Of a stretch of DNA of 64,000 bases, positions 17,795 through 28,423 are shown piece after piece. Position numbers and translations under genes: made by a program. The stretch's first letter is position 1. Each line of letters starts with the position of its first letter. Location: positions 186,001-250,000 of the IMG/VR virus record IMGVR_UViG_3300020122_000238; one strand, 5' to 3'. This stretch comes from a virus. The notes under the pieces were generated by a model. It ran no database searches, was not told the DNA's origin, and worked only from the letters and a program-made list of their open reading frames with translations.

Positions 17795-17980
17795 ATGGCC
17801 ATGAAGCTCTTTCACGACGACGACTGCGGGGAACTCCTGGATCAGACCGGGATGTGCCCGAAGTGCAAGTTCTACCCGGACATGCAGAGCACCTCCTTCA
17901 AGGAAGTGTCGGATGCTGAGTATCGGTCCGGGAAGTCGCAAGGACAGACGTACCTCGGAAAGTATCGGACGCCGCTTTGA
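17795..17980 (+). CDS. Zinc-binding small protein, 61 aa
   Basis: FHDDDCGELLDQTGMCPKCKF suggests three or four metal ligands (C11, C21, C24 plus His). It starts 7 nt after GGTGTAAC. Its TGA overlaps the TTG start of the next gene. Confidence 0.6.
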   Translation: MAMKLFHDDDCGELLDQTGMCPKCKFYPDMQSTSFKEVSDAEYRSGKSQGQTYLGKYRTPL

Positions 17981-18135
17981 TTACCCATCCCTCGAACATC
18001 ACCCAGGATGAAGCTCGGAACATCGGTCTTGCTGTGCTGACAGCAGGACTTGTGGCTGTTGTTGACAGCGTCATACGGCTCGGCTTCTACGAGTTTCAAG
18101 TGTGGCGCGAAGCACGTCGGAAAAAGCCCGAGTAA
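17977..18135 (+). CDS. Small membrane protein, 52 aa, TTG start
   Basis: TTG 17977 overlaps the preceding TGA (TTGA). The product has about 16 polar residues, a hydrophobic segment (IGLAVLTAGLVAVV) and a basic C-terminus (REARRKKPE), consistent with a single-span inner-membrane protein with the tail inside. No ATG is available in this frame. Confidence 0.5.
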   Translation: MITHPSNITQDEARNIGLAVLTAGLVAVVDSVIRLGFYEFQVWREARRKKPE

Positions 18136-18164
18136 CAAGCTACACCCCGGTGTAGCCGGGTGGC

Positions 18165-18230
18165 ATGAAGCTACTCGGAATTTCTGGGCTTGTCGTTTTC
18201 TATTGCCCCACACAGACACCCAGGACATAA
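18165..18230 (+). pseudogene. 5' remnant of native dNMP kinase gene
   Basis: ATG 18165 lies 8 nt after a GGTGTAGC box and encodes MKLLGISGLVVFYCPTQT before a stop at 18230. MKLLGISG is what a dNMP kinase looks like just before its P-loop; the intact kinase that follows has VYGISGNKGHGKDT. I interpret this as the start of the original gene, cut off after the P-loop Gly by the incoming kinase-HNH segment. The stop overlaps the next start (TAATG), so it may now act as a coupling leader. Confidence 0.5.
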
Positions 18231-19558
18231 TGCGGGCTATGTCTTACCGCAAGATATCAACACGGCGTTTGGAAGTCTACGGCATCTCGGGCAACAAGGG
18301 ACATGGCAAGGACACCTTCGCCAACCTCATCACACAGGCAAACACATCTTACAAAGTTGTCCCTTTCGCAGGGGCACTGAAGCGTATGTCAGCCAGGATC
18401 TTTGGGCTGACATACGCTCAGATGAACGATCCCTCCCTCAAAGAGATACCCCTTCCTCATGCCCGGGACATGGATCTGTTCGTCCCAGCCATGAAAGCCG
18501 AGACTGGACTACACATACAACCGGCGGGCAAGATTGCCCATAGTCCTCGTGAGGTCATGCAGTTTTTCGGGACAGAATATGTCCGAAGGATTCAGGACGA
18601 CTACTGGATCCAAAAACTACTCGCTGAGGTGGGAAACTCTCGACAAGTGCTCATTCCCGACGTCCGCTTTCCGAACGAAGCGGCTGCACTACGTTCTTAT
18701 GGGGGCATCATAATCAAGGTGGAACGGATCGATGCTCCCGTTCCGAAGGATGGGCATCTCTCCGAGACAGAGATGGCCAAAATCATCCCGGATCTTCTAG
18801 TGGGCGCACGGACAGGGGATCTGTCCCTTCCGTCTCGGATCGCGCGTCTCATTGCGATGAACCGTTTCGATTCTGCTACCAGCTACGACTATCGTAAGTC
18901 TAAGGAAGCAATTGCTTCCTATACATCAGGGAAGAGCGCCGAGGAGAGTTCTCTTCTCCTCGGCCACAAGCACCCCTATGCGCTCTACAACACCCTAGAT
19001 TACTATGGGGTACAGCGCCGAAAGCAGGCCCCAAACCGTGTCCACCATAAAGTTGTTGATGGGGTGGTTGGTAAATTCTGCATTCGGTGTGTGTGGCAAC
19101 CTCTGATTGAGTTCAACATGAGCACGAAGGCATGGGACGGTAAACATAGCTTGTGCCGTGCTTGCGCTTCTTTGGATCACAAGGATCGATACCAGAAGTA
19201 CGGGAAGACGGACAGCCTGTCGAGGGTCTACGCGATTTCGAAGAAACAAGCGGCGCAGCGTGGCATTCCCTTCAACTTGAGGGCGAGTGACATCCAATTC
19301 CTTTGGAATGCACAGGGAGGTCGTTGTACTTACAGCGGGCTGGAGATGACGACCGAGCTGAGATCCCCCAACAAGGTCACGATTGACAGAATTGATTCAT
19401 CGAAGGGGTATGAGATCGACAATATCGTTCTCTGCGGCTACCGCGTCAACTTGATGAAACGAGAAATGTCCTTGAGCGAGTTCAAGGGAATGATCCGCAC
19501 GTTGTACGAAAATCTGGCGGGAAGCTCATTCGGGTCGTGCGGCCCGGGGCTGGGCTGA
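18230..19558 (+). CDS. dNMP kinase fused to a C-terminal HNH domain
   Basis: A 442-aa protein. Residues about 14-215 form a phage-type deoxynucleoside monophosphate kinase (T4 gene 1-like): P-loop GNKGHGKDT (21-29), IPDVRFPNEA, and HLSETEM in the lid region, ending near RIARLIA. From about 240 onward is a second module with two Cys pairs (CIRC, CRAC) and an HNH core, GRCTYSGLEM then TIDRIDSSKGYEIDN, typical of phage HNH nucleases. Codons are AT-richer than the flanks, indicating recent acquisition. It starts at 18230 (TAATG) or 18239. A duplicated C-terminal kinase segment follows in another frame (19513-19704). Confidence 0.8.
   Translation: MRAMSYRKISTRRLEVYGISGNKGHGKDTFANLITQANTSYKVVPFAGALKRMSARIFGLTYAQMNDPSLKEIPLPHARDMDLFVPAMKAETGLHIQPAGKIAHSPREVMQFFGTEYVRRIQDDYWIQKLLAEVGNSRQVLIPDVRFPNEAAALRSYGGIIIKVERIDAPVPKDGHLSETEMAKIIPDLLVGARTGDLSLPSRIARLIAMNRFDSATSYDYRKSKEAIASYTSGKSAEESSLLLGHKHPYALYNTLDYYGVQRRKQAPNRVHHKVVDGVVGKFCIRCVWQPLIEFNMSTKAWDGKHSLCRACASLDHKDRYQKYGKTDSLSRVYAISKKQAAQRGIPFNLRASDIQFLWNAQGGRCTYSGLEMTTELRSPNKVTIDRIDSSKGYEIDNIVLCGYRVNLMKREMSLSEFKGMIRTLYENLAGSSFGSCGPGLG
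18381..18418. repeat. 14-bp inverted repeat in kinase domain
   Basis: Arms 18381-18394 and 18405-18418, loop 10 nt, within coding sequence. Confidence 0.9.
18903..18964. repeat. Palindrome and 10-bp inverted repeat at kinase-HNH junction
   Basis: An 18-bp perfect palindrome (18903-18920) and a second hairpin (18938-18947 with 18955-18964) lie close to where the kinase part gives way to the HNH part. Confidence 0.85.
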
Positions 19559-19704
19559 AGGGGGCCACGGGGCTGCACGTGAGCGAGGTTGAGCAGATGT
19601 CGATCCCCAACGAGGACTTCCACGTTGTCATCGTCAACGACGGGACCCTCGATGACCTGGCAGTCTCCGCCCGGAAGGCAGCCGAGCATTTGCTCTTTGG
19701 TTGA
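19513..19704 (+). pseudogene. 3' remnant of native dNMP kinase gene
   Basis: In a frame different from the fusion gene, 19513-19704 encodes SGGKLIRVVRPGAGLKGATG, then LHVSEVEQMSIPNEDFHVVI, then VNDGTLDDLAVSARKAAEHL and three more residues. This is the natural C-terminal part of a dNMP kinase, parallel to YGGIIIKVERIDAP ... HLSETEMAKI in the intact copy. It has no start codon of its own and high-GC codons matching the wider genome. It appears to be the tail of the displaced original gene. Confidence 0.7.
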
Positions 19705-19741
19705 GGGCATTTTGGTGTAAGATCCCCCAGGAGGATCTTCC

Positions 19742-21439: not shown

Positions 21440-22156
21440 ATGAGTCACACGTACGAATATCCCCGACCGTCTGTCACGGTCGACTGCGTTGTCTTCGGCG
21501 TCGCAGACCATCTCAAGGAGATGCACGTTCTCCTGGTCCGCCGTGGCTCCGCCCCCTTTCAGGGGTTGTGGGCTCTTCCGGGCGGGTTCGTCGAGACCTC
21601 GGATACCAGAGACCAGGGTGAGTCCCTGGACGAAGCGGCGCAACGTGAGCTGAGCGAGGAGACGGGAGCCCAAGTGGGTTTTCTGGAGCAGCTCGGCACG
21701 TATGGGACGCCCGGAAGGGATCCGCGAGGTCGAGTGATCTCGGTCGCCTACTACGCTCTGGTCCGCCTCGAAGACCATCCGGTCAAGGGTGGTGATGACG
21801 CGGCAGAGGCCAAGTGGTGGCCTCTGCCGAAAGCCCTCCGGCTATACAAGGCTTTCGACCACGACAAGATTCTCAAGGATGCTTGGGCGAGGCTACAGGC
21901 GAAGGTTCGGTATGCCCCCATCGGGTTCAACCTTCTTCCGCCGAAGTTCTCTCTGACGGAGCTGCAATCCCTCTACGAGCTGATCCTCAATCGGACGCTC
22001 GACAAGCGGAACTTCCGCAAGCGCATCCTGGCAATGGGCATCCTCAAAGAGGCGGGTGTCCAGGTTGGTGTCCCGCACCGACGAGCGTGCCTCTACAGAT
22101 TCGACAGCGTTGCTTACAAGCGAGCTGTTCGTGACGGTTTCAACTTCGAGATTTGA
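21440..22156 (+). CDS. nrtR: NrtR-type Nudix regulator / ADP-ribose pyrophosphatase
   Basis: A 238-aa protein with an N-terminal Nudix domain ([10 protein letters not shown] ... [17 protein letters not shown]) and a C-terminal winged helix (about 155-238). The C-terminal part contains [20 protein letters not shown], then [11 protein letters not shown] and RACLYRFD, all NrtR hallmarks. NrtR proteins repress NAD biosynthesis genes, with ADP-ribose or NAD as effector; some also hydrolyse ADP-ribose. The catalytic REL-SEE residues are intact, with a few extra residues after GGF. NAMPT follows after a 10-nt gap. A 12-bp inverted repeat (21801-21829) is in the coding region. A plain Nudix hydrolase is the alternative. 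Confidence 0.85.
21801..21829. repeat. 12-bp inverted repeat in NrtR-like gene
   Basis: Arms 21801-21812 and 21818-21829, 5-nt loop, within coding sequence. Confidence 0.9.
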
Positions 22157-22166
22157 TGGAGACCCC

Positions 22167-23552
22167 ATGACCACGTACGAAACGAACCCGATCCTCGACA
22201 CCGATAGCTACAAGCTCTCGCACCCCGAGCTGCAATACCCGGCGAACATGACGAGCATGTTCCACTACTTCGAGTCGCGCGGTGGCCGCTACGGCTCGAC
22301 CCTCTTCTTCGGCCTCAGCTATCTGTGCCAGGAGTACCTCAGCAAGGGCTTCACGCAGGACCACGTCAACGAGGCGGCCGACTTCGCCGCAGCCCACGGT
22401 GAGCCCTTCCCCAAGGCCGCCTGGGACCGTCTGGTGGCCAAGGGCGGCTACTACCCGGTGAAGATCAACGCGGTCCCGGAAGGCACGCTCGTCCCGACGC
22501 ACAACGTGCTCATGACGACGGAGTCGACGGACCCCGAGGCCCCGTGGGTCGGTTCGTGGATCGAGAACCAGCTCGTGCGCCTCTGGTATCCGATCACCGT
22601 CGCCACCCAGTCGTTCTTCATCAAGAAGATCATCTTCGAGGCCCTCGTGAAGTCCTCGGATGATCCGGTCGGCGAGATCGGATTCAAGCTCCACGACTTC
22701 GGCAGCCGTGGCGTCAGCTCGCGGGAATCGGCTGGCATCGGCGGCATGAGCCACCTGGTCAACTTCCTCGGTTCGGACACCATCGAGGGCATCCGCTACG
22801 CCAACCACTACTACACGGACAAGATGGCGGGCTTCTCGATCCCCGCGTCGGAGCACTCGACGATCACGAGCTGGGGCAAGTCGAACGAGATCGACGCCTA
22901 CCGCAACATGGTTCACCAGTTCGCGAAGCCGGGCAAGATGTTCGCCTGCGTCAGCGACTCCTACGATCTCTACAACACGGTCGAGAACATCTGGGGTGAC
23001 ATCCTCCGCGAGGAGATCAAGGAGTCGGGTGCGACCCTCGTGATCCGGCCGGACTCGGGCAATCCCTCGGAGGTCATCCTCAAGTGCCTCCAGATCTTGG
23101 AGCGCAAGGTCGGGATGACGACCAACACCAAGGGCTTCAAGGTCCTCCCGAAGTACATCCGCCTGATCCAGGGCGACGGCGTGAACGAAGAGTCGATTCG
23201 CGAGATCCTCAACGTGATGATGGCCAACGGCTACAGCGCCTCGAACATCGGATTCGGCATGGGTGGCGCTCTGCTCCAGGGTGTCAATCGCGACACCCAG
23301 CGCTTCGCCTACAAGTGCTCGGAGGTCCTGGTCGATGGTGAGACCCGCGAGGTCTTCAAGGACCCCGTCACCGACAAGGGCAAGCGCTCGAAAGCGGGCC
23401 GCGTCGACCTCATCCACGAGAACAGCGAGTTTAAGACCGTTCGGGGTACACGTCGGAACAGCGCTCTCATCTCGGTCTTTGAGAACGGCAAGATCCTGGT
23501 TCAGCCGACCCTCGCCGAGATCCGGAAAATCTCGGAACGTCACATCTTCTGA
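22167..23552 (+). CDS. nampt: Nicotinamide phosphoribosyltransferase (NAMPT)
   Basis: A 461-aa protein, full length for the family. It converts nicotinamide plus PRPP to NMN. Family landmarks: NPILDTDSYKLSH at the N-terminus, HDFGSRGVSSRESAGIGG with the substrate Asp, PASEHSTITSWG with the catalytic His, VSDSYDLYNTVENIWG, VIRPDSGNPSEV and IGFGMGGALLQGVNRDT in the phosphate-binding region. All catalytic positions I can place are present. It is operonic with the upstream NrtR-like gene (GGAG ribosome site, 10-nt gap). High-GC codons. The NMN can be adenylylated by the NMNAT domain encoded at 60296-61429. Confidence 0.95.
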   Translation: MTTYETNPILDTDSYKLSHPELQYPANMTSMFHYFESRGGRYGSTLFFGLSYLCQEYLSKGFTQDHVNEAADFAAAHGEPFPKAAWDRLVAKGGYYPVKINAVPEGTLVPTHNVLMTTESTDPEAPWVGSWIENQLVRLWYPITVATQSFFIKKIIFEALVKSSDDPVGEIGFKLHDFGSRGVSSRESAGIGGMSHLVNFLGSDTIEGIRYANHYYTDKMAGFSIPASEHSTITSWGKSNEIDAYRNMVHQFAKPGKMFACVSDSYDLYNTVENIWGDILREEIKESGATLVIRPDSGNPSEVILKCLQILERKVGMTTNTKGFKVLPKYIRLIQGDGVNEESIREILNVMMANGYSASNIGFGMGGALLQGVNRDTQRFAYKCSEVLVDGETREVFKDPVTDKGKRSKAGRVDLIHENSEFKTVRGTRRNSALISVFENGKILVQPTLAEIRKISERHIF

Positions 23553-26863: not shown

Positions 26864-27110
26864 ATGGGACGCCTGGTAGTTACCGTGAGGGGAGAATGCG
26901 AGCACCACAAGCGACGCGGACATCTACTGTGATGTCCGCGTCGCTTGTGGTGCAACGATCCTCCGCGTCGAGATGATAGGGGACTACCCCTCCACGGGCG
27001 CCCACATCTACGTGAAGTGCCAAAAATCTCCCGCCGAGCTGTCCGCGGCTATCGACGCTGCGGACGAGATCCCGCAATATTCAATCAGGACGGAAGTAGA
27101 GCGAAAATGA
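26864..27110 (+). pseudogene. Frameshifted small gene over a 23-bp inverted repeat
   Basis: ATG 26864 gives MGRLVVTVRGE and then leaves frame. One base on, coding resumes as SDADIYCDVRVACGATILRV, then HIYVKCQKSPAELSAAIDAA, to the stop at 27108-27110. One indel near the G-run at 26889-26892 would restore a protein of about 81 aa. The region right after the shift is a 23-bp perfect inverted repeat (26902-26953), which may have caused the mutation. The stop overlaps the ATG of the synthetase gene. Confidence 0.55.
26902..26953. repeat. 23-bp perfect inverted repeat
   Basis: Arms 26902-26924 and 26931-26953 with a 6-nt loop, inside the frameshifted gene. Confidence 0.95.
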
Positions 27111-28423
27111 GTAACGTAATCCTGATCGCGGGCCTCAACTACGGAGATGAGGGCAAGGGGACGACCGTCGACTACCTCGCTCGGAAGCACGAAGCGCACA
27201 CGGTCGTCCGCTACAACGGCGGAGCCCAAGCAGGCCATTCGGTGGTCCTGGAGGATGATCGGCACCACACCTTCGCCCAGTTCGGGAGCGCCACCTTCGT
27301 CCCTGGGGTGAAGACGCACCTCAGCCGGCACATGCTCATCAACCCGATCTTCATGATGTCTGAGGAGAAGCACCTCCGCACTGTCGGCGTCGAGGATGCC
27401 TTCGAACGGATGACCATCGAACGGGATGCGCTGATCACGACTCCCTACCATGTCGCCGCGAATCGCATCCGGGAGATGGCTCGCTCAAACCGCCACGGAT
27501 CTTGTGGGATGGGAATCGGCGAGACGGTGAGCAGTCACCTGTTCCACCCTCAAGAGGATCTCCGGATTGGGGATCTGGAAGGGCCAATCACCGCGCGATT
27601 GGAGCAGATCCGAGCGCGGTATTTGTGGGAGCTGGCTACTCTGCACATTCCCGAGTGCAAGTTCCGCGACTACGATTGCATCTGCCCGTTCAAGCATGAA
27701 TGGGGCATGCTCTTGAACAAGAGCCTTCTCCCCTTGATTGTGGGGTTGCTCACGGGATTTCTCAAGCTCCCGCTCAAGGTTGTCGATGAGACCTACCTCC
27801 CGCTCATCATGGGGGAAGGGACCACGATCTTCGAGGGTGCTCAGGGTGTCCTCCTTGATCAGGACTACGGGTTCCACCCCTACACGACCTGGTCCGACAC
27901 GACCTTCAGCAACGCCCTCAACCTGATCGAAGGCTTCTCTGGAGACGTAAGGAAGATCGGGATCGTTCGATCCTACATGACCCGGCACGGGGCGGGCCCA
28001 TTCGTCACGGAAGATGTCACCCTCCAGCTCCCCTCCACGAAGGTTGAGCACAACTCGCTCAATCCCTGGCAATCGAATTTCCGGGTGGGGCATTTCGACG
28101 CCTTCGCGACCAATTACGCCCTCAAGGTGATTGGGGGTGTCGACGAGATCGCCATGACACACTGCGATGTGCCAAGTAGTGGTAAAATTTGTGTTGGATA
28201 CAGGGGAGAGTTTACCCCCGAAGTGCTTCAGGATATGCCGCATGTGAAGCATATTCGTGAAGACCTCGACGTTCGTACGGGTATCACAAATGCTCTTTTC
28301 AATGTCTTTCCGGTGTACTTGACCGATGTGGCAGAGAAGGATTTCATCCCCAAAATTGAAGATTTCGTGGGGACTCCCATCACCATCAAGTCGTACGGCC
28401 CCACGGCCAAGGACAAGCGATAA
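27107..28423 (+). CDS. Divergent adenylosuccinate synthetase-like enzyme
   Basis: A 438-aa protein. PurA joins IMP and aspartate using GTP. The P-loop-like start GLNYGDEGKG keeps the catalytic Asp, and QAGHS keeps the catalytic His (Asn of NAGH is Gln). FEGAQGVLLD and TRHGAGPF are conserved. However, the IMP-site TTGRGIGP is SCGMGIGE and the aspartate loop TTGRxRRxGWxD is replaced by PWQSNFRVGHFDAF, so at least one aspartate-binding Arg is lost. The substrate may differ from IMP or aspartate. Unlike PurZ of diaminopurine phages the catalytic Asp is not Ser. ATG overlaps the previous stop and TAATG links to the kinase-like gene. Confidence 0.8.
   Translation: MSNVILIAGLNYGDEGKGTTVDYLARKHEAHTVVRYNGGAQAGHSVVLEDDRHHTFAQFGSATFVPGVKTHLSRHMLINPIFMMSEEKHLRTVGVEDAFERMTIERDALITTPYHVAANRIREMARSNRHGSCGMGIGETVSSHLFHPQEDLRIGDLEGPITARLEQIRARYLWELATLHIPECKFRDYDCICPFKHEWGMLLNKSLLPLIVGLLTGFLKLPLKVVDETYLPLIMGEGTTIFEGAQGVLLDQDYGFHPYTTWSDTTFSNALNLIEGFSGDVRKIGIVRSYMTRHGAGPFVTEDVTLQLPSTKVEHNSLNPWQSNFRVGHFDAFATNYALKVIGGVDEIAMTHCDVPSSGKICVGYRGEFTPEVLQDMPHVKHIREDLDVRTGITNALFNVFPVYLTDVAEKDFIPKIEDFVGTPITIKSYGPTAKDKR

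Follow-up and report, generated by a model that had tools for sequence, protein, structure and literature searches.

Organization of the kinase locus

The window analysed here, a stretch of 64,000 nucleotides, lies in a virus record of 275,300 bp. It holds a locus in which two remnants of a resident dNMP kinase gene enclose a larger open reading frame (ORF), all on the plus strand. The locus begins with a promoter-like GGTGTA motif at 18149–18154, recognized from hexamer statistics and retained from the resident gene; the motif is also found upstream of the intact gene of the related contig L021. The left remnant (18165–18192) consists of resident codons 1–9, MKLLGISGL, and runs on into foreign codons as a 21-codon mini-ORF, MKLLGISGLVVFYCPTQTPRT (18165–18230). 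The foreign segment, delimited by blastn and by alignment with a second related contig, L022, covers 1,323 bp (18193–19515) and replaces 503 bp of resident DNA.

A fusion ORF of 442 amino acids (18230–19558) occupies most of this segment. Family profiles, alignments and an AlphaFold model assign about residues 12–213 (18263–18868) to a divergent, full-length dNMP kinase domain. This is followed by a linker with a possible helix-turn-helix (about residues 214–280; 18869–19069), suggested by short helices in structure models whose confidence is low to moderate, and by a likely four-cysteine zinc motif (CIRC...CRAC; 19070–19165). The final domain (19190–19515), which carries the motif DRIDSSKGYEIDN, is predicted by profiles to be a PacI-type HNH (beta-beta-alpha metal) nuclease. 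According to the junction alignment, the last 13 codons of the fusion and its stop codon (AGSSFGSCGPGLG; 19516–19558, stop at 19556–19558) are resident kinase DNA read out of frame. The same DNA opens the right remnant (19516–19704), the last ~62 codons of the resident kinase, with the original frame intact. An earlier note on this DNA had described the mini-ORF beginning MKLLGISG, the 442-residue ORF and a kinase tail in another frame, and all three are present in the ORF list and the sequence.

Base composition separates the parts. The insert has a GC content of 52%, the tail one of 64.5% and the whole window one of 58.7%; the contrast between an AT-richer middle and GC-rich remnants also held at third codon positions (GC3 62% in the insert vs 84% in the tail). 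The tail alone matches phrog_139, the phage dNMP-kinase family, at model positions 210–260 (E 4.8e-6), and the fusion covers positions 85–236 of the same model. Positions 210–236 thus occur twice, once in the fusion and once in the tail, in agreement with the duplicated C-terminal kinase region reported previously.

The intact allele in a sister phage

When IMG/VR was scanned with the tail, two contigs were recovered, L021 (128 kb) and L022 (350 kb), both 86% identical to it at the protein level; they appear to belong to one sister phage. Both encode an intact dNMP kinase of 239 amino acids at the same locus, which starts with MKLLGISGLAGSGKDT, continues through GGKLIRVVRPGAGLKG and ends with GGKLIRVVRPG...VNDGTLDDLARCAREAAESLAFG. 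The promoter-like sequence ahead of the intact kinase is the same as that of the window. Window DNA from about 9.9 to 25.9 kb is collinear with that of the sister phage, mostly at 82–92% identity. On the left, 18148–18192 aligns over 45 bp with 5456–5500 of L022 (93%, blastn, E 3e-12). On the right, 19516–19728 aligns with L022 6004–6216 (86%, blastn, E 4e-68), and the right remnant itself is 86–87% identical to the end of the sister kinase.

This alignment with an insertion-free relative, the check proposed in the earlier note, places both remnants in the intact L022 kinase gene, and the intact allele of L021/L022 identifies them as the two ends of one resident dNMP kinase. The note had envisaged a simple insertion into that gene. 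Because 503 bp of the resident gene are missing relative to the sister allele, the event was a replacement instead. The nuclease gene is absent from the kinase locus of the sister phage. The structure of the event is hardly in doubt: the resident kinase has been replaced in place by a xenologous kinase-HNH gene.

Had the kinase been interrupted by an intron or intein whose homing endonuclease is the HNH protein, remnants on both sides with an HNH domain between them would likewise be expected. This alternative, which the note had named as its own refutation, is extremely unlikely. Fusion and tail do not share a reading frame, and kinase positions 210–236 are present twice. No Rfam intron was matched at the gathering or a relaxed threshold; no group I ribozyme core was found, and the nuclease does not lie inside a self-splicing element. 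Splicing could not restore the resident kinase in any case, because about 168 of its 239 codons are gone.

Immediately upstream of the kinase, window positions 17920–18147 differ wholly from the sister phage, which points to general mosaicism. The 45-bp homology island, containing the promoter and nine codons, is left between two replaced stretches. Several weak HNH relatives are encoded by the sister phage, at about 21.6 kb, 253–267 kb and 329 kb of G001 (the record of L022), one of them adjoining an adenylosuccinate synthetase gene. No counterparts of these were found in the record of the window phage.

The kinase domain

Residues 16–185 of the fusion match phrog_139 at model positions 85–236 with an E-value of 1.8e-37. 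The Pfam family DNMK (PF21448) is also matched, with E 1.7e-11 and 44.6 bits against a cutoff of 27.1. The domain contains the P-loop GNKGHGKDT, the PDVRFPNE motif (DxRFxNE), HxSE and the C-terminal strand and helix. All invariant columns of the phage kinase alignment (P-loop, R/Q/G/R/W/DxRFxNE/HxSE) are present. An AlphaFold model of the kinase half has a pLDDT of 76, and its best match in the PDB is the T4 dNMP kinase (gp1, 1dek; E 3.7e-8). The two share the fold, the P-loop and the conserved motifs; the fusion differs from the T4 enzyme by its C-terminal nuclease extension, and identity in the fold alignment is 18%.

The fusion kinase shares 28% identity with the resident kinase and 37% with a Caulobacter phage kinase. 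In the tree it groups with Caulobacter phage kinases (support 83/85, long branches) and the resident kinase groups with that of L023 (96/90), so that the resident and fusion kinases are not sisters. Low identity to the resident and this separate placement mark the fusion kinase as a xenologue. By sequence and predicted fold, the middle segment encodes a foreign, complete and divergent dNMP kinase. The earlier proposal of a foreign kinase with a C-terminal nuclease domain is thus upheld by phrog_139, the fold, the tree and the PacI profile described below.

Kinase activity of the fusion is likely but not certain, since the conserved NDG reads GAR; the C-terminal NDGTLDDL loop is represented by GARTGDLSL, which aligns with one extra residue. 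The possibility that the fusion kinase is truncated and relies on the resident tail for its completion was rejected: phage kinases can be aligned with the domain up to its very end, and the last strand and helix appear in the model. No further kinase of this kind was found in the 275-kb record besides the fusion and the tail.

The nuclease domain

Residues 283–430 of the fusion match several HNH/endonuclease VII families among the PHROGs. The match to phrog_1035, an endonuclease VII family, covers residues 283–429 and spans the four-cysteine motif. The HNH domain matches phrog_3322 (E 1.9e-22) and phrog_3118 (E 2.6e-20). A profile of the nuclease family in turn matches PacI (3ldy, E 0.0015) with the active-site motif aligned, DRIDSSKGY of the fusion standing opposite DRSDSFEGYSPQN of PacI. 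Judging by the structure of PacI, the tyrosine of the DRIDSSKGY-type motif is presumably the general-base tyrosine of that enzyme. The DR....GY pattern is retained in 21/21 distinct ORFs of the fetched set and, together with the motif alignment, places the domain with PacI-type nucleases. Common to both is a DR-x-D-x3-G-Y-x3-N motif in which Tyr replaces the usual His as the likely base. PacI differs in being a stand-alone restriction enzyme, whereas in the window the domain forms the C-terminal portion of a fusion with a kinase.

In Endo VII-like enzymes the catalytic His (H41 of Endo VII) is conserved and required (PMC6083498). This residue, catalytic in classical HNH enzymes as well, is Arg in the fusion and in all relatives, which at first sight speaks against activity; the domain therefore lacks the first catalytic His of Endo VII-like (DHHRN) homing endonucleases. 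Since the Arg is also found in PacI, the case for nuclease activity is made by comparison with PacI, which uses a tyrosine as general base (PMC4081073). On this comparison the PacI-type domain is plausibly active. The structure model of the nuclease half is poor (pLDDT 44) and was used only as a hint for a possible helix-turn-helix DNA-binding region between the kinase and the putative zinc motif.

The HNH relatives of the fusion nuclease are separate ORFs. Here, the nuclease is in one open frame with the kinase, with no stop between them, and so does not form a gene of its own as in free-standing homing endonucleases. A dead locus or an assembly chimera, in which the fusion is not a working gene, is a very improbable explanation. 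It would fit a metagenomic record without fusion-bearing relatives and the accidental nature of the 13 C-terminal residues. Set against this, 442 codons are open over two domains whose motifs are intact, and a chimera would need two matched joins because collinear conserved DNA flanks both sides.

Promoter-like motif and proposed translation

The hexamer GGTGTA occurs in 57 copies in the 64,000-nt window, compared with 10.7 expected. A start codon lies 6–16 nt downstream in 32 of the 57; permuted hexamers average 3.4 such cases. The excess and the spacing indicate a promoter-like signal of the phage itself. The copy at 18149 is the only one on the plus strand near the start of the fusion. The TAA of the mini-ORF overlaps the ATG of the fusion as TAATG. 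We infer that the surviving resident GGTGTA motif drives transcription of the fusion, whose translation would be coupled to that of the mini-ORF through TAATG. In general, GGTGTA often lies 9–11 nt before a start codon (e.g. at 18149, 19714 and 21423), and such a signal would give very short or absent 5′ leaders.

Age of the replacement

In its old frame the tail is free of stops and frameshifts, and its differences from the sister phage are mostly silent. Over 61 codons, a length of limited power, the comparison gave dN 0.088, dS 0.37 and a ratio of 0.24; the dN/dS of three neighbouring genes is 0.09–0.29. As the tail carries no disabling change and has a ratio like that of live neighbours, the replacement is probably young compared with the divergence of the two phages. 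The same ratio raised the idea of the tail as a separate gene under selection, which was rejected because the start codon and the kinase core are gone.

Mechanism of the replacement

The left junction falls directly after resident codon 9. The right junction is no more than about one codon away from the C-terminal end of the HNH relatives, and it is through this junction at the natural end of the nuclease that the fusion reads 13 out-of-frame resident codons. Donor and resident are not joined at a common kinase motif on either side. For this reason a plain crossover, in which two kinase genes recombine at motifs they share, was rejected.

The best explanation is a replacement driven by the nuclease, and the full account is given about an even chance. 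The nuclease would target the resident-type kinase gene or nearby DNA, and repair of the break would copy in the kinase-nuclease segment. The incoming kinase would supply the lost activity and be too divergent to be cut, the element thereby carrying its own rescue. A right junction at the C-terminus of the HNH domain is expected if the nuclease bounds the transferred unit, and random insertion would be unlikely to exchange one dNMP kinase for another at the same site. Free-standing phage homing endonucleases are known to cut alleles that lack them, repair copying the nuclease gene and its flanks (PMC2988022). Their targets are frequently genes of nucleotide metabolism, inside which several of them reside, and they give rise to marker exclusion (PMC2988022). 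Divergence of the kinase DNA is too great to allow ordinary homologous repair within the gene, so the junctions look illegitimate, unlike those of clean homing. Against a nuclease-driven replacement stand the upstream mosaicism (17920–18147), GAR in place of NDG and Arg in place of the catalytic His.

Ordinary mosaic recombination, illegitimate or through short homology, may have swapped the kinase gene with the nuclease as a passenger. This is possible but rather unlikely. The flanks are mosaic with respect to the sister phage, with other non-matching stretches, and the failure of either junction to pair the same kinase motif also suits it. It would leave the in-place exchange of genes of the same function, and a junction exactly at the nuclease end, as coincidences. 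A two-step history is improbable, in which a xenologous kinase displaced most of the resident gene and a free-standing HNH gene later invaded the 3′ end of the newcomer, removing the stop and creating both the fusion and the right junction. The kinase is complete to about residue 213 before the nuclease module follows, and the HNH genes of the family are otherwise separate ORFs, with several weak relatives elsewhere in the sister phage. Such a history requires two independent events at one gene, and its intermediate was not found.

Searches of IMG/VR, INPHARED and GTDB genome contigs found neither a donor nor a second kinase-HNH fusion; the scans were pattern-based and would miss distant cases. 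None of the 1,151 matching records of INPHARED covers 80% of the fusion query, the best-ranked covering at most 52%, and the fetched IMG/VR loci and GTDB genome contigs contained no such fusion. At the DNA level no match to known phages was obtained, and a terminase family search used to place the phage gave no match.

Other metabolic genes are present in the window. An adenylosuccinate synthetase homologue (27017–28423) has as its best PHROG phrog_1211 (‘2-aminooxy adenylosuccinate synthetase’, E 9.8e-78); it keeps the PurA-type GDEGKG, scores below every NCBIfam cutoff and may serve ordinary purine synthesis or a base-modified genome. At 21440–23552, an NrtR-like Nudix protein directly precedes a nicotinamide phosphoribosyltransferase-like gene, a possible NAD-salvage pair.

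Comparison with known systems

The locus resembles the intronless homing of the free-standing T4 seg/mob genes in that a phage gene of nucleotide metabolism contains a nuclease of the HNH family that the sister allele lacks, with break repair and co-conversion as the expected route. It differs in that the nuclease forms one protein with a kinase taking the place of the interrupted gene, in that its cleavage is a prediction, and in having no known donor with homologous flanks. In the Aeromonas phage Aeh1, mobE splits nrdA and the enzyme still works (PMC2988022). There too an HNH gene lies inside a nucleotide-metabolism gene whose activity is kept, as shown for Aeh1 and likely here. Both halves of nrdA are kept and reassemble, whereas here most of the gene is lost and a foreign enzyme would take over. 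Synthetic home-and-rescue gene drives (PMC7968924) share the principle of transmitting a nuclease together with a functional version of its target that resists cutting. Those are engineered Cas9 systems in insects, unlike the natural phage arrangement proposed here.

Phage homing nucleases normally lie beside or inside their target gene and spare it by splicing or by reassembly of its halves. What is new here is that a homing-type nuclease in a phage nucleotide gene is fused to a replacement enzyme; the target gene has been discarded and a foreign enzyme is covalently tied to the nuclease instead. It is a tentative and somewhat doubtful reading that the fusion is a natural home-and-rescue element uniting, in one polypeptide, a homing nuclease of the PacI-type HNH class with a divergent, cut-resistant working copy of its target. 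If true, invasion would at once destroy the resident dNMP kinase and restore its function. Because the sister phage retains an intact allele, the nuclease-driven claim can be tested directly. If the nuclease cuts the old allele, the locus would be a natural counterpart of the engineered home-and-rescue drives and would offer a direct route to the non-orthologous replacement of phage metabolic genes.
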